Virus record (IMG/VR): IMGVR_UViG_3300013137_000010
Span: 19,241-83,240 of that record
DNA from: a virus
Reading direction: 5' to 3' (one strand)
DNA: 64,000 bases
Below are positions 2,608 through 56,164 of this stretch, piece after piece. Each line of letters begins with the position of its first letter. The stretch's first letter is position 1. Position numbers and translations under genes: made by a program. The notes beneath the pieces were generated by a model. The model made no database searches. It was not told the origin of the DNA and worked only from the letters and a program-made list of their open reading frames with translations.

Positions 2608-4200
2608 TTAAATTGGTCTACCATAAATATCGGTTTTAGTTTCCTGATCACTAGAATCTAGCGGTTCAGAATATGTCCTTCTATAAGTATTATTAAACAT
2701 TCTCATCAATTCTTGTTTACCTAATGATCTTGAAAATTCGCAGTTAAAAGTTGCTGTTATCCATTGAGGTTGATCGTTAAATGCTAATTCAGTACTAGTT
2801 TCAACATAACAACTTTTCACAATTATATGATTGGTTGATAACCAAGGTGAGTAAGGATTACCTATAGTTAAGTGCCAAGGTGTAGAACTATATTTACCAC
2901 CAACCATCAATTCCAATGTGCCTCTAGTTTGAAATCTGTATATGGATAGTGTACTGGTTAATAATGTTTGTAAGAAGCCTTTGGTTATTCCAATAAGTCC
3001 TTTACCTGCATCACTTTTTGCACCACTGACTGCATTTTGAACATTGTCAGCAATATTATTTAATGTGCTATTTTTATTTTCTTCTGTTTTTTGTGAAGAT
3101 TTAGATTCTTCTGCACTCTTTTTAGACTTTTCTACTACTTTTTCTATTTCTGTTCTTACGTCATTAAATAAATCTTTTAATCCTTCCCAAAAACTCTTCA
3201 AAACTTCTTGCATAAATTTCCACCAAGCAGCAGGACTATTAGCTTCACCACTATTTGCTATTCTTGCTTTGTTTATTATCGGAGATTCATCATTCCAATA
3301 AAATAACATATTCGATGTACCCATTGCAAAAATATTATCTATTATATCTAGCATGGCGGAACCAGGATCAACAGATCCTAATAATTTTTGTTCATATGTA
3401 GTTTTTAATTCAAATGTAAAATCAGATTGAATATTTTGACTAAATGGATCTCTATAAGGTGCTTCTTGTAACACATTTGGATCACCAACCGGTATATTAC
3501 TTAATCCCCAATTATCTCCTTGTAATTCACCACTATAACTTTCAATAACTTCATCTACGCTATCTTGATTATTACCACCAGCTAATCCAGCTCTTTTGTA
3601 GAATTCAAAAAGAATACCTTGTGCAAAGTCTGGTATTGGAACCATAGCCGATATATTAATACCTCCAAAATTTCTTTGAACCAATTCATTCAATAACACA
3701 TCAAATCTTTTGTTGGTTTTTGTCCAGGTTTCGTTAAAATTAATTTTACCGAAATTTTCATCAGCCTTAACCCAACCTACAATTGTTGATATTGGTGATG
3801 TATTCATTTCTTCTAAATTCTCTGTAACAAATGAACCTTCAGGAAATCTTCTTAATATAGCTAATCTATTTATAGGATATACTCCTAATTCTCTTAGATA
3901 GGCTAGATCAGCTGCATTGATTCTTAATCCTGGACTACTTTTGAAATCATCCAATAATCTTAGATAAGGATTTCTTTCTCCTCTATTTCCAGTGTTTTCT
4001 CTCTTATATATGGAATCACCTAGGTATTGTTTAATTTCATTTGTATTTGTATTTTTCTTATTCTTATACACAACATAATGATAATCATCACCTCTAACAA
4101 CATTAGATGTATTATCCATGCTATTAGCATCTAAAATTTGGGTTACACTTTCTGCACCTGAACCATCAAAAAGAAAAGACATTTCAGAGTAATGAGCCAT
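2608..4200 (-). CDS. Baseplate/tail-tube junction-like structural protein
   Basis: 530 residues. The C-terminal 100 residues (TIGNPYSPWLSTNHIIVKS, then ELAFNDQPQWITATFNCEFS) describe a beta-sandwich repeat typical of myovirus tube-initiator or tube-cap proteins, related in idea to T4 gp48/gp54. Residues about 330-395 are a long charged, Lys/Glu/Ser-rich helix and linker. It is the first gene of the minus-strand baseplate cluster; an AT-rich inverted repeat with a TATATAAATA box lies just upstream. Which T4 gene it replaces is not clear from sequence alone. Confidence 0.45.
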   Translation of the reverse strand: MAHYSEMSFLFDGSGAESVTQILDANSMDNTSNVVRGDDYHYVVYKNKKNTNTNEIKQYLGDSIYKRENTGNRGERNPYLRLLDDFKSSPGLRINAADLAYLRELGVYPINRLAILRRFPEGSFVTENLEEMNTSPISTIVGWVKADENFGKINFNETWTKTNKRFDVLLNELVQRNFGGINISAMVPIPDFAQGILFEFYKRAGLAGGNNQDSVDEVIESYSGELQGDNWGLSNIPVGDPNVLQEAPYRDPFSQNIQSDFTFELKTTYEQKLLGSVDPGSAMLDIIDNIFAMGTSNMLFYWNDESPIINKARIANSGEANSPAAWWKFMQEVLKSFWEGLKDLFNDVRTEIEKVVEKSKKSAEESKSSQKTEENKNSTLNNIADNVQNAVSGAKSDAGKGLIGITKGFLQTLLTSTLSIYRFQTRGTLELMVGGKYSSTPWHLTIGNPYSPWLSTNHIIVKSCYVETSTELAFNDQPQWITATFNCEFSRSLGKQELMRMFNNTYRRTYSEPLDSSDQETKTDIYGRPI

Positions 4201-6146: not shown

Positions 6147-6869
6147 ATGGCAGAAGCAATGAATACAAATATGGAAAAGCACTACTTTATCCATATATTA
6201 GATAATCCAGAGCAGTTTTCTAAGGTTGAACCATTTTTCTTTAGAAATTCTGATATACAGTTTATATACACAGTTATTAGAGATGAGTATATCAAAAGCG
6301 AAAGCCATATAATACCCAGTCCACAGCAAATTTATTCAATGGTTAAACTTGCTGATCAAGATAATAAAATTAATGATAAAGTTATTAAGTTACTTCTTCA
6401 GTCAGATAATGCAGATATTAGCCAAGAATGGCTATCACCTAGATTTAAAGCGTGGAAAATCAAAAATCAATTAAAAGGCGATGCGTTAAAGATGATCGAT
6501 ATGATTCGTGGAATAGATGAGATTGATTATGATGATGTTACAGAAATTGCACAAAAAACCAAAACTATGTTTAATAATGTGCTTTTAGTTGATGATGATG
6601 ATCAAGATTTGGGTGAAGATTTTGATGATCCTGAATCACATAAACAACAAATAAGTAAAAATAGTATTCCAACTGGTTGGTCTAGTATAGATTCTATATT
6701 AGGTGGTGGTTGGAGTAAATCAACATTAAATGTGATAATGGGAGAAACTAATGTTGGTAAGTGCTCAAAATCAGATACTCCTATAAGAATTAAAAGCAAA
6801 AAAACAGGTGAAATAAAGGAAATTACTATCGGTGATTTTTTTAATTTAATGAAAAATAAAAAATCCTAA
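6147..6869 (+). CDS. Replicative helicase gp41/DnaB-like, N-terminal half fused to a short N-intein
   Basis: 240 residues. Residues 1-205 are the N-terminal domain, linker and start of the ATPase domain of a DnaB/gp41 helicase, ending exactly in Walker A (GETNVGK, 199-205). Residue 206 is Cys and starts an intein N-fragment of only 35 residues: CSKSDTPIRI, then GEIKEITIGDFF, after which the frame stops. This matches intein block A. The rest of the intein and helicase is at 8040-9116, beyond an endonuclease gene. Protein trans-splicing would restore the P-loop as GETNVGK-S. The helicase needs this to work, because neither half has a complete ATP site. Confidence 0.9.
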   Translation: MAEAMNTNMEKHYFIHILDNPEQFSKVEPFFFRNSDIQFIYTVIRDEYIKSESHIIPSPQQIYSMVKLADQDNKINDKVIKLLLQSDNADISQEWLSPRFKAWKIKNQLKGDALKMIDMIRGIDEIDYDDVTEIAQKTKTMFNNVLLVDDDDQDLGEDFDDPESHKQQISKNSIPTGWSSIDSILGGGWSKSTLNVIMGETNVGKCSKSDTPIRIKSKKTGEIKEITIGDFFNLMKNKKS

Positions 6870-6911
6870 ATTGGTCTCTCTTATTTTATATATAGAAATA
6901 AAAATATAGAT

Positions 6912-8030
6912 ATGAAATGTAAATTATGTGATAAAAAATTTGATTCTATTGTTGGTTTGTCTGTTCATTTATCTAAAGAACATAAAGAAGTATCTAAGAA
7001 AGATTATTATGATAAATATCTTAAAAAGGAAAACGAAGGTAAATGTTATTTTTGTGGAAATGATGCAATATTTAAAGATATATCTAATGGATATCACAGA
7101 ATATGTAAATCTAAAGAATGTTTAGGAAAAACAAGAGCAACTGGAACTCCAGAATTTTTAATGTATAAATATGGATTATCTAAAAAAGATGCCTTACTAT
7201 TAACAATTCAAAACGCAAAAGAACGAGGTGAAAAAATAAAAAAATCATTGGATCAAAGTTTTAGTAGAAATAAAAATTTTTTTAAGGAAAAATCTCATCA
7301 ATGTATTGAATTTTGGTTAAAAAGAGGATATACAGAAGAGGAGGCAAAGAAAAAAGTCGAAGATATTTTTAATGATATACATCAAAAAACTTGGAATAAA
7401 AGAAGGAATAATCCAGAATTATATCAAGATATAAATACAACTCAAATAGGATATTGGACTAAAAAAGGTCTTTCCGAAGATGATGCAAAAGAAAAAATAA
7501 AGGAAAGACAAAGAACTTTTACATTAAAAGGATGTATTGATAAATATGGTGAGGAAGAAGGATTAAAAATTTTTAATAATAGGCAGGATAAATGGAGTGC
7601 TAAGGTTGAAGATTTATATAAAAATGGAAAATTTACAAGATTTACTAAAGAACCATATTCTAAAAATGAAATAGAATTATTTGATTACTTATCAAATAAT
7701 TTAGATATAAAAGATAAAGTTCATTATGGTGATGATCAATTTTTCAGATATTTTTCAGATTTAGGCAGAACTTTTTCTTACGATTTTGTTTTTGGTAAAA
7801 AAATAATTGAATTCAATGGAGATTATTGGCATTGTAATCCTAATTATTATAATTCAAATTATTTTCATAAGTATCTTCAAATGTTTGCTTATGAAATTTG
7901 GGATAAAGATAAGTTAAGGATAAATTCTATTAAAAAAGTTGGATTTGATGTATTAATAATATGGGAAGACGATTTTAATAGAAAAAAACAACAAATTTTA
8001 CAGCAATGTATAGATTTTTTGAAAAATTAA
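6912..8030 (+). CDS. Homing endonuclease, Vsr-like fold, inside the fractured helicase gene
   Basis: 372 residues. It starts with a C2H2-type finger (CKLCDKKFDSIVGLSVHLS, with a downstream HKE) and a second CYFC/CKSKEC metal site at about 44-70. The middle is a chain of Lys-rich helical repeats. The C-terminal part (about 280-372) has a Vsr/PD-(D/E)xK-like core: YDFVFGKKIIEFNGDYWHC followed by DKDKLRINSIKKVGFDVLIIWEDD. Endonucleases with this kind of core are known between the two halves of fractured, split-intein genes of phages. It sits 42 bp after the first half and 9 bp before the second half, in the same orientation. Confidence 0.8.
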   Translation: MKCKLCDKKFDSIVGLSVHLSKEHKEVSKKDYYDKYLKKENEGKCYFCGNDAIFKDISNGYHRICKSKECLGKTRATGTPEFLMYKYGLSKKDALLLTIQNAKERGEKIKKSLDQSFSRNKNFFKEKSHQCIEFWLKRGYTEEEAKKKVEDIFNDIHQKTWNKRRNNPELYQDINTTQIGYWTKKGLSEDDAKEKIKERQRTFTLKGCIDKYGEEEGLKIFNNRQDKWSAKVEDLYKNGKFTRFTKEPYSKNEIELFDYLSNNLDIKDKVHYGDDQFFRYFSDLGRTFSYDFVFGKKIIEFNGDYWHCNPNYYNSNYFHKYLQMFAYEIWDKDKLRINSIKKVGFDVLIIWEDDFNRKKQQILQQCIDFLKN

Positions 8031-8039
8031 ATTAATAAA

Positions 8040-9116
8040 ATGATATTTGATAGAAAGTTTATAGATACAATAGAATTAGATGAATGGGAAGTTGAGACTG
8101 ATACTGGCTGGTCTGATATTAAAGCTATTGGTAAAACAATAGAGTATGATGAATGGTTGTTAAAAACCGATAAATTAGAACTAGTTTGTGCTGACACACA
8201 TATAGTTTTTGATGAATATTTTAATGAAGTTTTCATTAAAGATTTAAAAATTGGTGATAGAATAATAACTAAAAATGGAATAGAATCAGTTCAAATATGT
8301 TATAATACTAACATAAAGTCTAATATGTATGATTTACAATTAGACGATATAAATCATAGATTTTATACTAATGATATATTAAGTCATAATAGTATGTGGT
8401 TGCATAATATTGCAACTAATGCTGCAAATGCGGGTGCTAATGTTTTAGTAATAACATTAGAAATGGCAACAAGAAAGGTTATGAAAAGATTGGGTTCAAT
8501 GCGTCTTAAGATTAATTCAGATGAATATGATGAAAAATCTAAAGACGCAGTTTTTATGAAGCAAAGATTAAATAATCTTAAATCTCAGTCTAGTGTTGGA
8601 AATTTATTTGATTCTCAACCTGGTAAAATTTTTGTTAAGAAATACAATACTAGTGATTGTACTGTTACTGATATAGATAATTATGTTAAAAAATTTGAGG
8701 AAGTTAAAAGGATTAAAGTAGGAATGATTATTGTAGATTATATAAACATTATGGCAATTGAAAAAGGCTTTGATATTACTAATATGCTTTATTTAAAAGG
8801 AAAACATTTAGCAGAAGGTTTAAGAAAAATTGCAGATAAATATGAATGTGCAGTAGTAACTGCAACACAAACAGACAAAGCAGTTTGGGGTGCATCCGAT
8901 ATTAAACTTGGTGACATACCTGAAAGTAAAGCTATTGCTGATACAGCTGACTCTGTGTGGGGTATTATTAGAAATCCAGAAATGAAAAAGAATAACATAT
9001 ATAGATTAAAAATTTTAAAACTTAGAGATGGTGAACATCACGAAGAGCAAGTTAGATTTGATTTTAATACTAAATTTTTAACTATGGAAAATGATCAATT
9101 AGTTGGAACTAAATAA
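8040..9116 (+). CDS. C-intein fused to the C-terminal half of the gp41/DnaB-like helicase
   Basis: 358 residues. Residues 1-117 are the larger intein fragment: block B-like LVCADTHIVFD at about 48-58, DLKIGDRI at 68-75, block F YDLQLDDINHRFYTNDILS and the terminal His-Asn (116-117). The C-extein begins with Ser118 (SMWLHNIATNAANAG) and contains the rest of the RecA-type motor: TLEMATRKVMKRLGSMRL, Walker B-like VGMIIVDYINIM, and TATQTDKA. The spliced helicase would be 205+241 = 446 residues, close to T4 gp41 (475). The 35/117 split places the break near the intein start, unlike most natural split inteins. Confidence 0.9.
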   Translation: MIFDRKFIDTIELDEWEVETDTGWSDIKAIGKTIEYDEWLLKTDKLELVCADTHIVFDEYFNEVFIKDLKIGDRIITKNGIESVQICYNTNIKSNMYDLQLDDINHRFYTNDILSHNSMWLHNIATNAANAGANVLVITLEMATRKVMKRLGSMRLKINSDEYDEKSKDAVFMKQRLNNLKSQSSVGNLFDSQPGKIFVKKYNTSDCTVTDIDNYVKKFEEVKRIKVGMIIVDYINIMAIEKGFDITNMLYLKGKHLAEGLRKIADKYECAVVTATQTDKAVWGASDIKLGDIPESKAIADTADSVWGIIRNPEMKKNNIYRLKILKLRDGEHHEEQVRFDFNTKFLTMENDQLVGTK

Positions 9117-19034: not shown

Positions 19035-20645
19035 TTAATCTTGCTTATCTATGTCTGTAATTTGTTTAACACGACCATTATCGTGATCTATCGGACATTT
19101 ACTTGCGGTGGACAAAATCAAGGTTTTTGTTTTGATCTTACTGAAATTTAAAGAATCTGTATAGCCATCAGTAAGAATCACCGTGTTATACATATAGATT
19201 TTATTTTTCTTTTCCGCAATAAAATCAAGTCCTGGCATTAGGGAAGTCCCGCCCAATCCCCTGATCCTCATCTTTTCAAGCTCTTTTTTTTCTTTAATTT
19301 TAAGAACCTGCTGAATTTGAGCATCACACTGAATAAGATTAATCTGAATGTCATTCTGGAAGATATAAGAGAGAACTTTTTCAAAACTTCCCCCCATACT
19401 TCCACTAGTATCTAGAAGAACGTTAATTTCATTCTTATATTTTTTGTGACCTTTAAGACCAGAAATACCTCTACGGTTAGGACGAACGATGGTTTTTTCT
19501 TTCTTGGAGCCAAAGATATGATTACTCATAGTTCTTTTAATTTCTTTTAAGTAATCTTTTTTGGTTTTACGAAGTTTATTAAGAATAGATTCAACATCAC
19601 CAGAGTTTAAACCTCTATTTTTCAATTTAGTCATTGCATTCTCAACAATTTCTCTTTTTAATTCCTGAGGAATTTCATCACCAAGATGTGCATCAAGAGT
19701 ATTCTGTTCTTCACGTTCTTCACCTTCAAAAATGGTTTCTAACGAATAGCATTCGGCATCATTTTTACCATATTTACCATATCTATCATTACCTGAAGTA
19801 TCTTTCTGACCCTGACGAGATTTATTATTATGATTTTCGTGACCGCAATTTGGACATTTATTACTCTGGCTATTATCACCACTTTCACCGCCACTTCCAT
19901 CATTACCATTTTCATTATTTTCGTTAGATTTTTCTTTTCCTTTTCCTTTTCCTTTCTGATCTTTCTGATCTTTCTGTTCTTTACCCTCTCCCTCTCCATT
20001 TTCATCACCTGATTTATCTCCAGACTGATCACCTGGCTGATTCATTGGTGAACCACATTTTGGACATTTGTTCGATTCGTTGCGCATTTTCTGAATAGCT
20101 TCTTTATTTTTTTCCTGCCATTCACGTTTCTTATTAACATACCATTCATATAAATCTTCAAAGATTGCTTCACCTTTGTATTCTTTAGGAATAAATAAGG
20201 CACTGTTTCTTTTAAATTCATCTTTAGGAATACTAAGAAATGGCTTAGAACCCTGACCTAATCCCTGCTGCTTCATAATTTCATCATAAATAATTTGATT
20301 GATAATCATGTCTTGAACAATATTAGCAGAGCGTGCATCATAACCAACACTTCTTTTAACATGATCAAATAGAAGATGAAATTCCTCGTGAATTAAGAGG
20401 AAATTAATCTCAGATTGAGGTAATTTGTCAATAAATTTACGATCCCAATAGAAATTCATACCTTTTGATGTAACATTAACACCAGCAGTTGGAATATACG
20501 GATTATTTTTTGATTCGTAAAAATTGATGAACAAAGCAAATTCACCATAATAAGGTAAATTACCAGTCGCCATCATTGCTACTACGGCTTCTGTGAGCTT
20601 TTCGTGCATCTGTCCAGGAATCACATGTTTATAGAAATCAACCAT
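19035..20645 (-). CDS. VWA/metallopeptidase-like protein (DUF2201 type)
   Basis: 536 residues. N-terminal metallopeptidase-like domain with HEEFH (about 86-90) and a second-helix NIVQDMIINQI. A Gly/Lys/Asp/Asn-rich linker (about 190-300) contains two zinc ribbons (CPKCG and CPNCGHENH). The C-terminal VWA domain has a MIDAS motif DTSGSMGGS at about 412-420. This is the architecture of the VWA partner of MoxR-type ATPases, and such an ATPase is encoded at 14219-15493. Both genes have similar host-like promoters. The repetitive linker DNA produces long but meaningless frames on the other strand. Confidence 0.82.
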   Translation of the reverse strand: MVDFYKHVIPGQMHEKLTEAVVAMMATGNLPYYGEFALFINFYESKNNPYIPTAGVNVTSKGMNFYWDRKFIDKLPQSEINFLLIHEEFHLLFDHVKRSVGYDARSANIVQDMIINQIIYDEIMKQQGLGQGSKPFLSIPKDEFKRNSALFIPKEYKGEAIFEDLYEWYVNKKREWQEKNKEAIQKMRNESNKCPKCGSPMNQPGDQSGDKSGDENGEGEGKEQKDQKDQKGKGKGKEKSNENNENGNDGSGGESGDNSQSNKCPNCGHENHNNKSRQGQKDTSGNDRYGKYGKNDAECYSLETIFEGEEREEQNTLDAHLGDEIPQELKREIVENAMTKLKNRGLNSGDVESILNKLRKTKKDYLKEIKRTMSNHIFGSKKEKTIVRPNRRGISGLKGHKKYKNEINVLLDTSGSMGGSFEKVLSYIFQNDIQINLIQCDAQIQQVLKIKEKKELEKMRIRGLGGTSLMPGLDFIAEKKNKIYMYNTVILTDGYTDSLNFSKIKTKTLILSTASKCPIDHDNGRVKQITDIDKQD

Positions 20646-27328: not shown

Positions 27329-29050
27329 TTATTGCTTTTTCCAGATAAATTTAATCTGTCCTGAATCATATATTCTATAAATTTTTCTTTCCAACATTAT
27401 TTGATGTTCAGTTTTAGTAGGATCAAAACCATCATTAATAAGTTTATTTTTTCTATATGTAAAACGATGTTTTCTTATTTTATCCACAATGTAATAATAA
27501 TTTGGATTTGTAATGTGGGAATAATTAAAATTTAATTTTTTATATAAATTTCCATTTGAGTAACTTCTATTTGCGTATGTAATAATTTCATTTGGATTAT
27601 AATTAATTGTAAAATAATTAAATAATTTTGATGCCCCTCCAATAACATTAGTATTTAATTTATTACAAAATCTACTTAATTCCCATTCATTTTTTATATT
27701 TTTATCATTCATCACAATTCTTTTATTTCCAAATGTCATTAAACTAATTAATTCCTCATTGTAGTATAGACCTAAACCAATTTTATTTGTTATATAACCT
27801 TGAATATGATTTTTTTCTAAAAATTCCTTAATTACTTTATTATCTGATATTTCTTTTATTTTACATTTTCTGGCAAAAATTCTATTAGTTGTTTTATTTA
27901 ATTTGTTTAATATCATAGATTTAATAATATTTTTTTTATGAATCCAATCATCTTCCCATATGTGGATTAGCTGAATATTTTTTTCTACACATAGATTTGT
28001 TTTATCTAAATGATAGTTATCGGTTTTATTAATTTCATTGTGCCACCATAAACCATTAAATTCAAATGCTAGATTTAAATCGGGTAAATATATATCTAAT
28101 TCTTTACCAATAATATCTTTATCATTAAACGAAATTATTTTATTATAATTTTCTTGAATAAATTGTTTCATTTCAATTTCTAATCCAGAGATACCTTTAT
28201 TAATTGGATTACATTCTGTGCATATTAAAGTGCTGGTTTTTCTTCTAGAATTTAATAAAACGTAATCAATATCAAATATATGACCATTATCGCATTTCAT
28301 TGTATATTTTCTGTTTTTATTGTCAATATTTAATATATTATATTCTTTATAATATTCTTTAATATTTTTTGCTAATGTTAATAATTGATTTTCTTTTGAT
28401 TTAATTTTAATTTTTTCATTTTGTAAAGCATGTTCTACACCATATTTTAATAACATAGTTTCTTTAATTTTATTATTTATTTCTTTGCTTTTTTTTGGAT
28501 TATCAACGCCATAATTTTTCATTAATGTTTTTATTGATTTTATCCTTATTTCTTCTGATTTATTTGGATTATCAACGCCATAATTTTGTAATAAGGTATC
28601 TTTAGATTTCTTTAGTATATTTTCATTTTGCATTGGACTATTTGAACCATATTTTTTATTATTAGTTTTAATAATTTTAGCTTTGATATCACTGTTCATG
28701 GCAGGAGCCTTGGTGCCGTATTTTTCATAAGATTTATTTTCTTTAGTTTTTTTGATATTTGGATCACTACTTATGCAAGCTGTACAACAATATTTATAAT
28801 ATCCCAAAGTTGAATTTTTAAATTTTGTTGTATTATCACAATTTATATTTGCACATTTTACAATTTCTTGCAAATTATTAACATAATGATATACTTTTTC
28901 TTTAAAAGGCAAATCTGATAAATTATCTTTACAAAATTCAATAATATCATTAAATATATCAGGATAATTACTTTTTACATACTTTTCAACATACATCCTA
29001 CCAGATGGTCCATTTTCTTTTTTTATTATTTCTACGAAATTGTTTTTCAT
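27329..29050 (-). CDS. Homing endonuclease with KYGV repeats and Vsr-like nuclease core
   Basis: 573 residues. A Cys cluster (CANINCDN then CCTAC, about 65-95) is followed by five repeats of the type LLQNYGVDNPNKSEEIRIKS (about 105-225). The nuclease core is at about 310-365: ELDIYLPDLNLAFEFNGLWW with His, then LCVEKNIQLIHIWEDDW. The C-terminal 180 residues (LEKNHIQGYITNKIGLGLYY, ELSRFCNK) resemble a fused acetyltransferase-like DNA-binding module seen in such enzymes. It is opposite in strand to its tail-gene neighbours, and was inserted between sheath and dNK genes. Confidence 0.75.
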   Translation of the reverse strand: MKNNFVEIIKKENGPSGRMYVEKYVKSNYPDIFNDIIEFCKDNLSDLPFKEKVYHYVNNLQEIVKCANINCDNTTKFKNSTLGYYKYCCTACISSDPNIKKTKENKSYEKYGTKAPAMNSDIKAKIIKTNNKKYGSNSPMQNENILKKSKDTLLQNYGVDNPNKSEEIRIKSIKTLMKNYGVDNPKKSKEINNKIKETMLLKYGVEHALQNEKIKIKSKENQLLTLAKNIKEYYKEYNILNIDNKNRKYTMKCDNGHIFDIDYVLLNSRRKTSTLICTECNPINKGISGLEIEMKQFIQENYNKIISFNDKDIIGKELDIYLPDLNLAFEFNGLWWHNEINKTDNYHLDKTNLCVEKNIQLIHIWEDDWIHKKNIIKSMILNKLNKTTNRIFARKCKIKEISDNKVIKEFLEKNHIQGYITNKIGLGLYYNEELISLMTFGNKRIVMNDKNIKNEWELSRFCNKLNTNVIGGASKLFNYFTINYNPNEIITYANRSYSNGNLYKKLNFNYSHITNPNYYYIVDKIRKHRFTYRKNKLINDGFDPTKTEHQIMLERKIYRIYDSGQIKFIWKKQ

Positions 29051-30666: not shown

Positions 30667-31368
30667 ATGGAAAAGCAATGTAGAATTTGTGGAAAAATTA
30701 AATATGTAAATGAATTTCACAAGAAGAAAGGAACATCTGATGGCTATAGAAATGAATGTAAAGAGTGTGTGAAAGATATCCAAAAAAAATATAAGGAAGC
30801 ACCTGGATTTAAAGAAAAACAAAAAGAATATGATAAGAAAAGATATGATGAAAATAGAGAAAGTGTTTTAGAAAGAAAAAAAGAGTATCATAAAGAAAAT
30901 AGAGAAAAAATATTAGTTCAAAAGAAGCAATATAGAAATGATCCTGATAATAAAGAAAGAATTAAGGAATATTTAAATGAATATAGGATTAATAATAAAG
31001 AAGAGTTGAAAGAGTGGAGAAAAAATAATCGACATATTTTAGCAAAGAACCAAGAAAATTATAGATTAAATAATCCTCATATAATCGCTTGGCGTTCTGT
31101 TTTATATTCAACTCTTAAACGACTTGATACTAAAAAACAAGGACATACCATAGATATGTTAGGTTATTCTGCATTAGAATTAAAGCATTATATTGAGAAA
31201 CAATTCACAGAGGGTATGACTTGGAAGAATCATGGTGAGTGGCATATTGACCATATACGTCCTGTAACTAAGTTTGCAACAACTGAAGATGTTAAAATTG
31301 TATGTGCTTTGGAGAATTTACAACCTTTGTGGGCGGATGAAAATTTACATAAAAATAATAAATTTTAA
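30667..31368 (+). CDS. HNH homing endonuclease
   Basis: 233 residues. An N-terminal zinc site (CRICGKIKYVNEF then CKECVK, about 5-38), a long Lys/Glu/Arg helical linker, and a C-terminal HNH domain: GEWHIDHIRPVTKF and ALENLQPLWADENLHKNN. The module is bounded by the tube terminator and a convergent gene whose end it overlaps by 4 bp. Confidence 0.85.
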   Translation: MEKQCRICGKIKYVNEFHKKKGTSDGYRNECKECVKDIQKKYKEAPGFKEKQKEYDKKRYDENRESVLERKKEYHKENREKILVQKKQYRNDPDNKERIKEYLNEYRINNKEELKEWRKNNRHILAKNQENYRLNNPHIIAWRSVLYSTLKRLDTKKQGHTIDMLGYSALELKHYIEKQFTEGMTWKNHGEWHIDHIRPVTKFATTEDVKIVCALENLQPLWADENLHKNNKF

Positions 31369-39655: not shown

Positions 39656-39730
39656 CTAGGTGCGATCCATGTGGTGTGGTTACCCGGCTTGGAACCGGGG
39701 TTATTGGAGGTTCGACTCCTCTCACTTAGA
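39656..39730 (+). tRNA. tRNA-Pro(UGG)
   Basis: Acceptor CTAGGTG/CACTTAG; anticodon stem CCCGG/CCGGG with loop CTTGGAA (anticodon TGG); T-arm GGAGG-TTCGACT-CCTCT. The D-stem ATCC/GGTT has one T-T mismatch. The CCA end is not encoded. Confidence 0.8.
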
Positions 39731-39735
39731 CAACT

Positions 39736-39812
39736 GGTCCTGTAATGGCGGAGTCTTCTAAACTCTATGTGCATAATGGATGAAAATGAGAGTTCGAATC
39801 TCTCCTGGATCA
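39736..39812 (+). tRNA. tRNA-like RNA, copy 1 (no canonical D-arm)
   Basis: Acceptor GGTCCTG/CTGGATC (one T-T mismatch) and T-arm GAGAG-TTCGAAT-CTCTC are clear. The middle allows two exclusive folds: stem GGAGT/ACTCT with loop CTTCTAA (Arg UCU geometry, but then no D-arm and a 20-nt variable region), or stem TCTAT/ATGGA with loop GTGCATA (Cys GCA geometry). Two further copies exist at 39819 and 42594. Confidence 0.5.
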
Positions 39813-39818
39813 CAAATT

Positions 39819-39898
39819 GGCCCTGTAATGGCGGAGTTTCCTAAACTCTATGTGCATAATTGGAATGAAAAATGAGAGTTCGAATCTCTTCTGGGTCA
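39819..39898 (+). tRNA. tRNA-like RNA, copy 2
   Basis: Acceptor GGCCCTG/CTGGGTC (T-T at the same place as copy 1), T-arm GAGAG-TTCGAAT-CTCTT. The hairpin GGAGT/ACTCT has loop TTCCTAA (CCT if read as anticodon). The alternative GCA fold needs a bulged T. Otherwise nearly identical to copy 1. Confidence 0.5.
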
Positions 39899-39912
39899 CA
39901 AAAATAAAGATT

Positions 39913-40134
39913 ATGAAAACAAAAAAAGTAGCAGTAAAAAAAGTAGAATCAAAAGTTTTAGCAGTAGAAATATTCTGTGAAAACTTAGAGAAAAATGTGA
40001 CTGTGGATATATCTAAGTTATATTTTTTGGGTAGTGAAAGTGAGTGTGAATTGTGTGGTTCACACGGTTCTGTGAATGTTTCAGTAAATTGTGAGTGTGG
40101 TAAAAATCACAGTATTGAATTGAGTAGTTGGTAA
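39913..40134 (+). CDS. Small Cys-rich protein, possible zinc knuckle
   Basis: 73 residues from ATG 39913 (MKTKKVAVKKVESKVLAVE). The frame is open further upstream, but that part is tRNA-like copy 2, so the later start is preferred. CELCGSHG and CECGKNH in the second half could bind one zinc ion. It sits between RNA genes; no family recognised. Confidence 0.6.
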   Translation: MKTKKVAVKKVESKVLAVEIFCENLEKNVTVDISKLYFLGSESECELCGSHGSVNVSVNCECGKNHSIELSSW

Positions 40135-40142
40135 GAGTAGTT

Positions 40143-40151
40143 GTTCTTTGA
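40143..40151 (+). promoter_or_regulatory. boxA-like leader before tRNA-Ala
   Basis: GTTCTTTGACATGTTGGA, 16 bases before the tRNA. The longer match is of the type seen in rRNA leaders and spacers of Bacteroidota. Confidence 0.55.
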
Positions 40152-40166
40152 CATGTTGGAAAATTA

Positions 40167-40239
40167 GGGGGCGCATGTACCAAGGCTGGCGAGAGACATT
40201 TGCAATGTTTCTGGGAGATTTCGATTATATTCGTCTCCA
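40167..40239 (+). tRNA. tRNA-Ala(UGC)
   Basis: Acceptor GGGGGCG/CGTCTCC, anticodon stem AGACA/TGTTT with loop TTTGCAA (TGC). The T-arm GAGAT-TTCGATT-ATATT has one mismatch and the D-arm is irregular, so the molecule may be divergent. Confidence 0.6.
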
Positions 40240-40318
40240 CTATTTTATTATAGGGTAAATATTATGATACTGAAATAAAAATATTTATAGATTTAAATGA
40301 ATTAAAAGAAATTTATAT

Positions 40319-40392
40319 GGGTTGTGTAGTGTAACCTGCTTAGCACGAAACACTTGCAATGTTTAAGAGGAGTTGAAATCTCACACGATCCA
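40319..40392 (+). tRNA. tRNA-Ala(UGC)-like, second copy
   Basis: Acceptor GGGTTGT/ACGATCC, D-stem GTGT/GCAC, anticodon stem AAACA/TGTTT with loop CTTGCAA (TGC). The T-stem has only three good pairs and its loop is TTGAAAT instead of TTCGAAT. The D-loop lacks the usual GG. Possibly degenerate. Confidence 0.5.
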
Positions 40393-40397
40393 CATAT

Positions 40398-40431
40398 CCG
40401 GGATGATCCTCTGTTGTATCGCAGAGCCCGG
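40398..40431 (+). other. Two-tier hairpin between tRNAs
   Basis: CCGGG/CCCGG outer stem and CTCTG/CAGAG inner stem with a one-sided ATGATC bulge and an 8-nt loop. There is no T run, so it is not a terminator. It may be a processing signal. Confidence 0.5.
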
Positions 40432-40436
40432 TCCAT

Positions 40437-40509
40437 GCGATTGTAGTTCAGTTGGTAGAATACTTCCTTGGTAAGGAAGAGGTCGTGAGATCGTAACTCA
40501 CCTTTCGCT
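40437..40509 (+). tRNA. tRNA-Thr(GGU)
   Basis: D-arm GTTC-AGTTGGTA-GAAT, anticodon arm CTTCC-TTGGTAA-GGAAG (GGT), T-stem GTGAG/CTCAC with an unusual ATCGTAA loop. The acceptor GCGATTG/CTTTCGC has two T-T mismatches. Confidence 0.75.
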
Positions 40510-40518
40510 CTAAGATAA

Positions 40519-40568
40519 AGAATACATACAGCAACAAAAAAATGCATGGTTAGCAAAAAAAGTATTCT
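40519..40568 (+). repeat. Hairpin motif AGAATAC...ACAGCAA...GTATTCT (copy 1)
   Basis: AGAATAC (40519-40525) pairs with GTATTCT (40562-40568); the loop begins ATACAGCAA. Three more copies of the motif occur at 40589, 46477 and 46815. The fourth base pair changes A-T to T-A between copies, which keeps the pairing. Confidence 0.6.
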
Positions 40569-40588
40569 GTTCTTAAAAAATTATCTAA

Positions 40589-40655
40589 AGATTACATACA
40601 GCAATCTTAAAAAAGGACCAAACTTGTAATTTGAAATTCTGAAAAAATGTAATCT
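40589..40655 (+). repeat. Hairpin motif AGATTAC...ACAGCAA...GTAATCT (copy 2)
   Basis: AGATTAC (40589-40595) pairs with GTAATCT (40649-40655), with the same ATACAGCAA loop start as copy 1. A shorter alternative, AAGATT/AATCTT, is also possible. Confidence 0.6.
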
Positions 40656-40665
40656 GTGATAAAAT

Positions 40666-40738
40666 GCGAATGTATATCAGCGGTAGATAGTCTGGTTGCC
40701 AACCAGAAGGTTCGTGGGTTCGAATCCCATCATTCGCT
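40666..40738 (+). tRNA. tRNA-Gly(GCC)
   Basis: Acceptor GCGAATG/CATTCGC, D-arm TATC-AGCGGTA-GATA, anticodon arm TCTGG-TTGCCAA-CCAGA, T-arm GTGGG-TTCGAAT-CCCAT. All arms are perfect. Confidence 0.92.
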
Positions 40739-40747
40739 CAGTAAATT

Positions 40748-40818
40748 GCGAAATGTAGCTTAACGGTAAAGTATCTGGCTTCCAACCAGAGGAAGGGGTT
40801 CGATTCCCACATTTCGCT
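40748..40818 (+). tRNA. tRNA-Gly(UCC)
   Basis: Acceptor GCGAAAT/ATTTCGC, anticodon arm TCTGG-CTTCCAA-CCAGA, T-loop TTCGATT. The D-stem is weak. Confidence 0.88.
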
Positions 40819-40822
40819 CCAT

Positions 40823-40900
40823 GCGAGCATAACTCAGTAGGTTCAGAGTACTTGTCTTACAAACAAGAAGTCGATGGTTCGACTCCATCTGTTCGCACCA
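40823..40900 (+). tRNA. tRNA-Val(UAC), CCA encoded
   Basis: Acceptor GCGAGCA/TGTTCGC, D-arm ACTC/GAGT, anticodon arm CTTGT-CTTACAA-ACAAG, T-arm GATGG-TTCGACT-CCATC, followed by ACCA in the DNA. Confidence 0.9.
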
Positions 40901-40902
40901 AT

Positions 40903-40986
40903 GCTGATGTAGTATAGCGGCTATTACACTGGCTTTGTAACCCAGCGTCTGAGAAGACATCGTGAGTTCGAGTCTCACCATCAGCT
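40903..40986 (+). tRNA. Class II tRNA with UGU in anticodon position
   Basis: Acceptor GCTGATG/CATCAGC, T-arm GTGAG-TTCGAGT-CTCAC and a long variable arm with GTCT-GAGA-AGAC. The anticodon arm CTGGC-TTTGTAA-CCCAG has a C-C mismatch next to the loop and reads TGT (Thr). A long variable arm is normal for Leu, Ser and Tyr, not Thr. A Tyr(GUA) reading would need a shifted loop. Confidence 0.65.
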
Positions 40987-40996
40987 CAAAATGAAT

Positions 40997-41163
40997 GGGA
41001 AATCAACGATGAAAAGGCGGATCGTACAGGCAACGAAAGTAATCCTGATTGGATAACGAATTGCGGATGCACCTATAGCGACCTTATTGAGGTGGTGAAA
41101 AAATGAGCAAGGGAAGCGCGTTACTAGTTACCAACGTCGCGGGTTCGAATCCCGCATTTTCCA
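40997..41163 (+). ncRNA. Structured RNA with tRNA-like ends (167 nt)
   Basis: Acceptor-like GGGAAAT/ATTTTCC and a perfect T-arm GCGGG-TTCGAAT-CCCGC close a 167-nt segment. A D-like stem ACGA/TCGT follows the first strand. The interior has ATCC-TGATT-GGAT and CACC...ACCT-TATTG-AGGT-GGTG hairpins. No normal anticodon arm can be drawn and no group I core is visible. It may be a tRNA with an unknown insertion or another tRNA-like RNA. Confidence 0.5.
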
Positions 41164-41208
41164 CAAAAAAATTAAAACTTTTTTTTTCATATTATAAAAG
41201 TAAATATC

Positions 41209-41279
41209 GAGGATATGGTGTAACCTGGTAACACGGGGCATTTGGGATGCTCAGAAGCCGTTCAAATCGGATATCTTCG
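41209..41279 (+). tRNA. tRNA-Pro(UGG), second copy
   Basis: Acceptor GAGGATA/TATCTTC, D-arm GTGT-AACCTGGTA-ACAC, anticodon arm GGGCA-TTTGGGA-TGCTC (TGG with G37, as in tRNA-Pro), short T-stem with TTCAAAT loop. Confidence 0.8.
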
Positions 41280-41306
41280 ACAACTCTGATAATCAGGTAT
41301 TTATAA

Positions 41307-41393
41307 GCCGAATTCCCATAGTGGTTGATTGGGCGTGACTTGTAATCACGAGGGTTTTTATACCCCGCACTGGTTCGAATCCAGTATTCGGCT
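41307..41393 (+). tRNA. Class II tRNA with UGU anticodon
   Basis: Acceptor GCCGAAT/ATTCGGC, perfect anticodon arm CGTGA-CTTGTAA-TCACG (TGT), long variable arm with GGG/CCC, T-arm ACTGG-TTCGAAT-CCAGT. As at 40903, the anticodon predicts Thr while the shape is that of Leu/Ser/Tyr tRNAs. Confidence 0.75.
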
Positions 41394-41412
41394 CTCATAC
41401 CTAATAAAAAAT

Positions 41413-41444
41413 AAAAATTCATTTCTCTCTCGAAATGAATTTTT
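41413..41444 (+). terminator. Intrinsic terminator of the tRNA group
   Basis: AAAAATTCATTTC and GAAATGAATTTTT, 13-bp stem with a TCTCTC loop, ending in T residues. Confidence 0.75.
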
Positions 41445-41451
41445 GACTTAA

Positions 41452-41474
41452 AAATATTTATATATACAAATAAA
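41452..41474 (+). promoter_or_regulatory. Endonuclease-module promoter box
   Basis: AAATATTTATATATA plus CAAATAAA, identical over 23 bases to 30638-30660. Confidence 0.6.
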
Positions 41475-41479
41475 AAAGT

Positions 41480-42151
41480 ATGAAGTGGTCTGAAGAAGAA
41501 GAAAATGATTTAATTTCTTTATTAGAAAATGGATTTACATATTTGGATATATCTATTAAATTAAATCGAACTAAAAAAAGTGTTAAAGAAAAAGCTAATA
41601 AGTGTGGACTTAATTTTAAGTCTTTCCTTAAAAAGGAGGCAAATAAATGCTTAGAGTGTAATAAAGATATTGAAAAAAATAAAAAATTCTGTTCATCATC
41701 ATGTTCTGCAAAACATAACAATAAAAAAAGAATTCACAAAGAATCAAATTGTATAGTTTGTGGAAACAAAACCAAAAAGTTTGGATACAAATTTTGTTCT
41801 AATAAATGTCAAATAGAACATCAATATGCTGTATATATTCAGAAGTGGAAAAATGATGAAGTTGATGGTGTGTCTGGTGAATATGGAACATCAAGATATA
41901 TAAAAAAATATTTATTTGAAAAGTTTAATGGAAAATGTACGAGATGTGGATGGGGTGAAAAAAATCAATATACAGGTAATATTCCATTAGAGATAGAGCA
42001 TAAAGATGGCAATAGTAAAAATAATAAAGAAGAAAATTTAACTCTATTATGTCCTAATTGTCATTCTTTAACAGAAACATATAAGGGTGCAAATAGAGGA
42101 AATGGTAGATATAATAGGCGAGAAAGATATAAAGATAAAAAATCATACTAA
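41480..42151 (+). CDS. HNH homing endonuclease adjoining an intron-bearing tRNA
   Basis: 223 residues. An N-terminal Myb/SANT-like helix-turn-helix (MKWSEEEENDLISLLENG), then two Cys4 sites (CLECNKDIEKNKKFCSSSC; CIVCGNK...FCSNKC), then an HNH core: CTRCGWGEKNQYTG, PLEIEHKDGNSKNN, ENLTLLCPNCHS. Its stop codon ends at 42151 and the intron-containing tRNA-Arg starts at 42152. The gene may have homed next to the tRNA or act together with the intron. Confidence 0.85.
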   Translation: MKWSEEEENDLISLLENGFTYLDISIKLNRTKKSVKEKANKCGLNFKSFLKKEANKCLECNKDIEKNKKFCSSSCSAKHNNKKRIHKESNCIVCGNKTKKFGYKFCSNKCQIEHQYAVYIQKWKNDEVDGVSGEYGTSRYIKKYLFEKFNGKCTRCGWGEKNQYTGNIPLEIEHKDGNSKNNKEENLTLLCPNCHSLTETYKGANRGNGRYNRRERYKDKKSY

Positions 42152-42432
42152 GGTCCCGTAGCTCAGCTGGATAGAGCAACAGCCTTCAAAAGGAGCTTCA
42201 TAGATGAAAATGTGTGTCGAATGGTGTAAATTCAAAGAATGCTTAACAGGTAATGCTGATGTTAACTTTGAGCGAAGTTCTTGTATAAGAAAACGTGCAG
42301 AGACTATAATCACCCACCTAAGATAGAAATATTAAGGTGAAGGCATAGTCCAGACCACAAACAATAATTGGCAGTGAAAACTGTAGTGGTAGGCTAAGCT
42401 GTGGGTCATAGGTTTGAATCCTATCGGGATCA
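42152..42432 (+). tRNA. tRNA-Arg(UCU) interrupted by a group I intron
   Basis: Exons 42152-42186 and 42394-42432. Joined, they give acceptor GGTCCCG/CGGGATC, D-arm GCTC-AGCTGGATA-GAGC, anticodon arm ACAGC-CTTCTAA-GCTGT (TCT) and T-arm ATAGG-TTTGAAT-CCTAT, a fully canonical tRNA. The intron sits between anticodon positions 34 and 35. Confidence 0.88.
42187..42393 (+). other. Group I intron (207 nt) in tRNA-Arg
   Basis: The 5' exon ends in T and the intron ends in G, as in group I introns. The core strands are visible: R-like GTGCAGAGACTATA and S-like AAGGCATAGTCC, whose AGACTA/TAGTCC-type pairing is P7, with a P8-like CACCT/AGGTG between them. A Q-like stretch (GAATGCTTAACAGGTAATGC) lies upstream. 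There is no reading frame inside, so it would be a minimal self-splicing intron. Confidence 0.85.
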
Positions 42433-42458
42433 CATATATTTTATATACATTTTATAAT

Positions 42459-42531
42459 GCCTTCTTAACTCAATTGGTAGAGTAGTTCTTTCGTAAAGAA
42501 CAAGTTATCGGTTCGAATCCGATAGTTGGCT
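42459..42531 (+). tRNA. tRNA-Thr(CGU)
   Basis: D-arm ACTC-AATTGGTA-GAGT, anticodon arm GTTCT-TTCGTAA-AGAAC, T-arm ATCGG-TTCGAAT-CCGAT. The acceptor GCCTTCT/AGTTGGC has two T-T mismatches, as in tRNA-Thr(GGU). Confidence 0.85.
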
Positions 42532-42570
42532 CTTAAAATTCCTTAATTTTTTTATTTCAGAGTTTTTCCT

Positions 42571-54751: not shown

Positions 54752-56164
54752 ACTACTACACTAAAGATGTAGTAGTTTCGGGAACATAATGTTCCTTCTC
54801 TTTAAGCGTTTCATTGCTTTTGCCTAATTTTTTAGGTCTTATTTTTGCTCCACGCTCGTAATCAGACGTTCCATCTGATATATTTTTTCTATATCCTTCA
54901 TTAAGGATATTAGTTGCAGCATTTAAATCTCTATCGTGTTTTTCACCGCATTTAGGACAAATCCATTCCCTGTCTTTTAATGTTAATGAGTTATTGATCC
55001 AACCACACTTAAAACATGTCTTGCTTGAAGGAAAAAATCTATCAATATGTATAACCTGCTTGTCGTTCCAAGATGCTTTATATTCAAGTGTATCAATAAA
55101 TTTACCCCAACTAACATCAAGTATTGATTTATTCAATCCTGATTTTCTTGATTGACCATTAGGAATATATTTTCCATTTTCGTCTTGCTTTGCTTTACAT
55201 CTGTGAGACATTCCTTTTATATTAAGGTCTTCCAAGTAAATTGTATCAAATTGATTTATCAAAGAATTAGTGGTTTTGTGTATCAAATCCATCCTTGAAT
55301 TAGTAATCTTTTCGTATATTCTTGCTACTTTTATTCGTTGCTTTTCATAACGATTTGATTTAATTGTTTTTCTGGATAGAGATTGTTGATTTAGTTTTAA
55401 TTGACGTTCGTAGTGTTTTAAAAATCTATGGTTCTTGATTTTCGTTCCATTAGATAACACTAAAAAATCTTTTAATCCTAAATCTATTCCTACTGAAAAT
55501 CCTGTTTTACTAACTGGAGTGTATTCCATTTCAGTTAGAATTGATACAAAGTATTTTCCAGTAGGAGTTTTACTTATAGTACAATGCTTAATAGTTCCTT
55601 TAATTTTTCTTTCCATTATCATTTCTATACCTTTTCTAAACTTCGGTATGATAAGTTTATCTTTCTTTACAGAAACGAATTGTGGTATAGTAAATGAATT
55701 TTTTGATTTCCTTGATTTAAATTTAGGAAATCGTGTTCTTTTTTTAAAAAATCCATCATAAGCGGTGTCTAAACAATTTAAAGAAAATTGTAATGTTTGT
55801 GAGTTTATTTCCTTCAACCACTTTTTATCCTCTTGTTTTTTAATTTGGGTTAGTTCTTTTGCTTGGTCGTAGTAATCTAATGATTTTTTGTTATTAAGGT
55901 ATTCATTCTTCCTTTGATTAAGAAAATAATTATAAGTCCATCTAACAGAGCCAAAATGTTTATTCAGTAATATTTTTTGATCTTCTGTTGGTTTTAACCT
56001 GAACTTGTATGTATATTTAATTATTTTCATCTTTTATGTTAAAACTTTTTTCTAACATAACTATATATAATTAAAAATATATCACTTTTTTCTATTTTTA
56101 AAAATGGTTTGAATGATTAAAGAGTTTAGTGTCAAATTCATCAAACTACACTAAAGATGTAGTT
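54752..56164 (-). mobile_element. TnpB-only IS200/IS605-type element
   Basis: A tnpB gene without tnpA. Hairpins with the identical 9-nt loop ACTAAAGAT lie at both sides: ACTACTAC/GTAGTAGT at 54752-54776 and AACTAC/GTAGTT at 56144-56164. Such subterminal palindromes are expected of this family. There is no target duplication. The exact ends are not resolved; both hairpins overlap coding sequence (end of tnpB; start of the 56129 gene). Confidence 0.7.
54756..56030 (-). CDS. tnpB: TnpB RNA-guided nuclease
   Basis: 424 residues. N-terminal helix-turn-helix-like part (YKFRLKPTEDQKILLNKHFG), then a split RuvC domain with GIDLGLKDF (D183), YLEDLNIKGM (E267) and HDRDLNAATN (D368), and a zinc finger C339, C342, C358, C361. 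All catalytic residues are present. TnpB uses an RNA made from the 3' end of its own gene and the element end to cut DNA at a matching site next to a short motif. The guide here would come from the DNA left of about 54750, that is, the end of the UDP-sugar dehydrogenase gene. Confidence 0.92.
   Translation of the reverse strand: MKIIKYTYKFRLKPTEDQKILLNKHFGSVRWTYNYFLNQRKNEYLNNKKSLDYYDQAKELTQIKKQEDKKWLKEINSQTLQFSLNCLDTAYDGFFKKRTRFPKFKSRKSKNSFTIPQFVSVKKDKLIIPKFRKGIEMIMERKIKGTIKHCTISKTPTGKYFVSILTEMEYTPVSKTGFSVGIDLGLKDFLVLSNGTKIKNHRFLKHYERQLKLNQQSLSRKTIKSNRYEKQRIKVARIYEKITNSRMDLIHKTTNSLINQFDTIYLEDLNIKGMSHRCKAKQDENGKYIPNGQSRKSGLNKSILDVSWGKFIDTLEYKASWNDKQVIHIDRFFPSSKTCFKCGWINNSLTLKDREWICPKCGEKHDRDLNAATNILNEGYRKNISDGTSDYERGAKIRPKKLGKSNETLKEKEHYVPETTTSLV

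Follow-up and report, generated by a model that had tools for sequence, protein, structure and literature searches.

Genes fractured by split inteins are a known class in phages: in 2009, Dassa and colleagues (NAR 37:2560) reportedly described a replication gene of phages that a split intein interrupts, its two halves flanking a free-standing gene for a Vsr-related endonuclease, and the gp41 split inteins that they characterised are said to have their split close to the canonical C-terminal endonuclease site. The gp41-1 intein has such a canonical split and a long N-intein. Other characterised inteins have short N-inteins of 15-37 aa and are split after beta2 (S1) or after helix alpha1 (S2; PMC13014065). 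AceL-TerL (25 aa), GOS-TerL (37 aa) and the engineered Cat (30 aa), all from terminase, combine an S2 split with a short N-intein and a long C-intein, whereas VidaL (16-aa N-intein) is split earlier, at S1, such that its C-part keeps alpha1 (PMC13014065). Here we analysed a window of 64,000 nucleotides (positions 19,241 to 83,240 of IMG/VR virus record IMGVR_UViG_3300013137_000010) in which a split helicase gene with an endonuclease gene in the gap repeats the fractured-gene layout of Dassa and colleagues. Unlike their gp41 inteins, the window's is split after residue 35, as in the short-N-intein terminase systems, and unlike those it interrupts a replicative helicase. The locus is therefore not unique, and its assignment to the known class of atypically split inteins ('fractured genes') is well supported.

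A comparable arrangement is present in a cultured phage, Vibrio phage vB_VmeM-32 (KU160494), whose gp41 locus encodes a 27-aa N-intein, a related endonuclease gene annotated as a hypothetical protein, and a C-intein of ~118 aa in an unannotated C-half. Its intein sits two residues further upstream in the P-loop (GVN/TGKS, the slash marking the insertion) with Thr at +1, whereas the window's lies at K/S with Ser at +1. The same phage carries a uvsX gene that is broken up by a SegG-like endonuclease and has a canonical C-intein of only about 35 aa (L106, KU160494.1, 1-1194), and one phage thus has both split types.

All features of the window's locus lie on the + strand. The upstream ORF (6147-6869, 240 aa) reads as a gp41/DnaB-like helicase up to the Walker A sequence GETNVGK, an N-extein of 205 aa (6147-6761) recognised by phrog_19 (DnaB-like helicase, E 1e-17) and by alignment to uninterrupted homologues, and then continues for 35 extra residues, CSKSDTPIRIKSKKTGEIKEITIGDFFNLMKNKKS, to a stop. 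The downstream ORF (8040-9116, 358 aa) opens with 117 residues ending in NDILSHN and proceeds from SMWLHNI as the C-terminal helicase part, a C-extein of 241 aa plus stop beginning with Ser+1 (8391-9116; Pfam DnaB_C, E 6.5e-18; phrog_19, E 8e-44). Both halves fall on the one PHROG profile (phrog_19 positions 156-366 and 368-579), and the spliced helicase computed from the ORFs is 446 aa long (205 + 241). In five loci (L010-L013 and L017), the helicase is uninterrupted, reads GETNVGK/SMWL and is 84-88% identical in protein to the window's, and no interruption is present in the helicase of a 735-kb phage genome (59% identical). Because these homologues read straight through, the insert is exactly the N-intein, the gap and the C-intein, from K to S. 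This clean empty site, in a host protein whose halves are separate ORFs, confirms that Walker A is broken between its K and S (GETNVGK/S), and bears out an earlier note, made from the sequence alone, that the helicase is broken after GETNVGK; the host gene is thus an essential helicase.

The 35 residues at the end of the upstream ORF are an N-intein (6762-6869 including the stop), with the codon of the Cys1 nucleophile at 6762, the last residue ending at 6866 and the stop at 6867-6869. They are conserved in 18 helicase loci, where N-inteins range over 32-43 aa, and the window's falls within the 15-37 aa of atypically split inteins (PMC13014065). The C-intein (8040-8390, 117 aa) starts with Met at 8040, ends with His-Asn at 8390 and shows block B (CADTH), block F (YDL) and block G (SHN), so that the lengths and span (6762-8390) given in the earlier note were exact. 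Together the two parts hold the complete residues of a class-1 intein, namely C1, the block-B H54 in CADTH, D98, H116, N117 and Ser+1, with H54 and N117 invariant across an alignment of 65 C-inteins (the window's and 64 relatives). The AF2 model of the C-intein (pLDDT 93) is nearly all beta, begins with strands and has the HINT fold; compared with solved folds, its top match was VidaL (6vgv; E 6e-8, 1.1 A over 100 columns), then Cat (6dsl) and gp41-1 (6qaz). While the window's own C-intein had no significant match in Pfam or NCBIfam, and its assignment comes from family profile and fold, Pfam Intein_splicing was matched by 44 of the 65 family members. With the family profile, gp41-1, from a gp41 helicase by name as in the window and differing from it in its canonical split, was the best match (E 3e-15), followed by VidaL (5e-15) and CatC (5e-13). 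VidaL is thus the best structural match although it is split at S1.

That the halves belong together follows from contiguous relatives such as L163, a helicase-site intein in one ORF (GSPKTGK/CVLGNT...FHSMAKIRKNNWSLIKKFIE...NDILSHN/TTWL); these relatives have a variable connector at the place of the window's split. With alpha1 placed by alignment, the split appears to lie after this helix, at S2 as defined in PMC13014065. We dropped an assignment to the N35 site discussed in PMC6801210, since by alignment the split precedes N35 and falls within the alpha1-beta3 connector. The claim that the break lies near the intein start, unlike the usual split near the endonuclease site, stands in its first part and needs recasting in its second, as in this lineage the connector is itself the endonuclease's place and the canonical endonuclease site is empty.

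Given this anatomy, we consider it very probable that a trans-splicing split intein restores the helicase while an EDxHD homing endonuclease occupies the gap. The helicase half-genes would be translated separately, and the basic 35-residue N-intein (first strands plus alpha1) would dock into the acidic 117-residue C-intein, completing a class-1 HINT active site from Cys1, the block-B His, the terminal Asn and Ser+1. Opposite charges were seen throughout the helicase loci (mean +3.1 for N-inteins, -10.6 for C-inteins) and could steer this assembly. Ligation would be traceless and yield a 446-residue enzyme with Walker A intact. The gap endonuclease, expressed from its own late-type promoter, would most likely cut intein-free helicase alleles of co-infecting phages at the Walker A codons, and repair would copy intein and endonuclease into the cut allele. 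Carriers would be spared because the insertion interrupts the cut site, and splicing would render the insertion nearly neutral.

The gap ORF (6912-8030, 372 aa) stands free between the helicase halves, with stops on both sides, and has an N-terminal zinc-finger-like part and a C-terminal nuclease domain. Its AF2 model (pLDDT 92, pTM 0.47) has confident domains in an uncertain arrangement, and its top two PDB folds were I-Bth0305I (3r3p; E 0.07, probability 1.00) and E. coli Vsr (1vsr; E 0.15, 0.90), matches with weak E-values that concern the catalytic domain only. The window's own protein had no significant match in Pfam or NCBIfam, and we assigned it through family profile and fold: TIGR00632 (vsr) was matched by 11 of 58 family members, and D291, E300, G303 and H307 of its catalytic motif, D291...E300-F-N-G-D-Y-W-H307 (7782-7832), were invariant in the 58-sequence alignment. 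From these folds, members and residues, the gap protein is of EDxHD type, which agrees with the Vsr-like gap endonuclease that had been proposed; I-Bth0305I, like Vsr grouped with it by fold and by the D...EFNGDYWH motif, differs in being a mobile-intron protein rather than one seated between split-intein halves. In PMC3943268 the EDxHD family is presented as homing endonucleases of phages whose contacts with DNA are extended and involve several domains.

About 25 nt before the endonuclease ATG lies the element TTATATATAGAAATAAAA (6886-6903). This 18-mer has 7 window matches at ≤2 mismatches (0.36 expected), and ATATATA occurs in the 60 nt ahead of 31 of the family's 59 endonuclease genes, mostly 15-30 nt before the ATG (3.6 in dinucleotide shuffles), compared with 1 of 73 C-intein ORFs. 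The related TATAAATA or TATATATA stands just upstream of 14 of 67 window ORFs (1.4 expected), including those of tail-like proteins and several endonucleases. We take the element to resemble a T4-type late promoter, and Dassa and colleagues reportedly also described control elements that come along with such endonuclease genes. Such a predicted promoter would uncouple endonuclease expression from that of the helicase. In a sigma-70 promoter scan, sites were no more numerous than in shuffles.

Evidence for movement of the cassette came from a relative, L004, in which DNA identity to the window is 0.69-0.83 over the N-extein, jumps to 0.96 at the intein start, stays at ~0.9 in the endonuclease and drops to 0.71-0.77 in the middle of the C-intein. 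The endonuclease tree joins the window and L004 (SH-aLRT 100), whereas the C-intein tree places the window with L003 and L006 (98/84) and L004 with L008 and L009 (100/96). The jump and the discordant trees show that N-intein and endonuclease passed from one lineage to another independently of the C-intein. Synonymous divergence points the same way (0.30 in the N-intein and 0.40 in the endonuclease against 1.1-2.1 in the exteins), with the contrasts being rough because it saturates low in the AT-rich endonuclease. This transfer bears on a reading in which trans-splicing works and the endonuclease does not home, being inherited passively or serving another role such as rival-phage exclusion. Two helicase loci (L005 and L006) lend it some weight, as their endonuclease appears from sequence to have been lost with the split kept, the gene being cut down to about 30-40 C-terminal residues while the N-intein stop and C-intein start remain. 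However, the sharp tract from the intein boundary, the discordant trees, purifying selection on the endonuclease (dN/dS 0.11 between window and L004) and catalytic residues invariant in the family make this reading improbable. Homing also predicts site specificity, which is matched by endonuclease lineages grouping by host gene: trees of C-intein and endonuclease both do so with few switches (for the endonuclease, 5 changes versus 23 when shuffled).

It is much less probable still that the endonuclease fractured the gene into two polypeptides that assemble non-covalently into a working helicase. A break plus an endonuclease alone would appear similar, and a phage ribonucleotide reductase in pieces offers a precedent (Friedrich 2007, as cited in PMC10448857). 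Against it, the P-loop is interrupted between its K and S, both halves in about 20 helicase loci have conserved intein sequence complete with the catalytic residues, and empty-site alleles differ from the window by exactly the intein insertion.

We rejected as hardly credible a decaying pseudogene whose work is done by another phage or host helicase, since, although the record is incomplete (83 kb) and in one relative (L002) a 115-bp stretch contains a stop and alters Walker A, extein dN/dS is only 0.06 and 0.04, the same architecture recurs in many diverged loci, the record contains a single helicase, and L002 looks misassembled. The low dN/dS values between window and L004, which for the N- and C-intein are 0.16 and 0.27, indicate that exteins, N-intein, endonuclease and C-intein are all under constraint. 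A second DnaB-like helicase, which if intact would overturn the earlier note's reading by its own terms, was not found in the 83,240-base record, which may be a fragment. L002 itself equals the window over 13 kb save 25 mismatches, all within 6628-6742 and including the stop; we rejected recombination on this confinement, and misassembly is likelier. An assembly artefact behind the split arrangement itself was ruled out by the same layout in independent, diverged contigs. Trans-splicing with a homing endonuclease in the gap remains our preferred reading.

Relatives revealed how widespread the architecture is. The endonuclease has 268 viral relatives, and nearly all of the best 80 of these, which we read, have a C-intein just downstream; their host genes are terminase large subunit, DnaB-like helicase, SbcC/gp46 and clamp loader, plus a lone UvsX intein, and the recognised N-parts end in GK. 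The C-intein has at least 474 viral relatives, with 14 more in bacterial assemblies, nearly all metagenome bins. Among the C-intein matches listed, we counted 77 distinct sites at which +1 is Ser or Thr. Of these, 42 were split around an endonuclease ORF, 11 around a fragment of one (in some cases truncated where the contig ends) and 8 around none; 7 were contiguous, at 1 the endonuclease and C-intein formed a single in-frame fusion, and 8 were unresolved. Judging from these sequences, a short N-intein, an EDxHD gene and a C-intein of ~115 aa in a P-loop are combined at hundreds of viral loci. The claim that short N-intein forms are few consequently holds for characterised proteins (15-37 aa; PMC13014065) and fails for sequence data, where most of the matches read have the arrangement.

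Several relatives depart from the pattern. L130 (around 2875-4003), with its endonuclease ORF in frame with the C-intein, is the single exception to separate ORFs. Terminase genes of eight loci (L186, 2342-4213; L177, 4000-5377; L158, L118, L126, L138, L181 and L194) hold two to four related inteins, some split and others contiguous; one of them sits at Walker A and the rest lie farther along the gene. In Caulobacter phage Cr30 (L107, KF301602.1, 2653-5371), an endonuclease relative lies just upstream of an uninterrupted terminase gene.

At least one contiguous intein, that of L133, appears to be re-fused and to carry an endonuclease scar: its connector corresponds to the final 75 nt of an endonuclease gene in another reading frame (RVREHDYNKDPQSQIRACLNFLTE and a stop, compared with RVREHDYNKDPQSQIHACLNFLTE and a stop where the full gene of L144 ends), and the DNA flanking a ~715-nt deletion can be aligned between the two loci on either side. 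As C and F in this tail hardly vary among the family's endonucleases, the scar is probably endonuclease-derived and the join secondary; L174 looks alike on thinner evidence. These cases led us to propose a large P-loop-specific lineage, the window's locus included, with EDxHD genes in the alpha1-beta3 connector, nearly always as separate genes, that would cycle from invasion with fracture through gene-conversion spread (N-intein and endonuclease apart from C-intein) and endonuclease decay with the split kept to occasional healing with an out-of-frame scar, a scheme to which we give about equal belief and doubt. If true, fracture makes the connector site usable by an endonuclease and is reversible. 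Beyer et al. 2019 (PMC6801210) found it puzzling that intein endonuclease domains always occupy one site, and argued that an endonuclease inserted at the symmetry-related position would collide with the host protein. A life cycle that sequences document at a non-canonical site bears on that single conserved site, and an endonuclease placed elsewhere, almost always by chain splitting, renders an idea of the Beyer type testable.

For practical work, the 18 helicase-type N-inteins of 32-43 residues are short enough for peptide synthesis. Since Pfam gives no score for the window's intein, such genes would escape standard annotation, and the helicase would be recorded as truncated. Elsewhere, the window encodes three further endonucleases, a phrog_3339 homing endonuclease with an FNGLWWH motif (27329-29050, -), an endonuclease VII-like protein (30667-31368, +) and an HNH protein (41480-42151, +), each preceded by an element of this TATATATA/TATAAATA type. 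A late-type element also precedes an ORF at 54756-56030 (-), presumably TnpB/IS605 OrfB-like by its start, and a cluster of ten tRNA genes with a tmRNA-like gene occupies 39656-42532 and 61894-62267.
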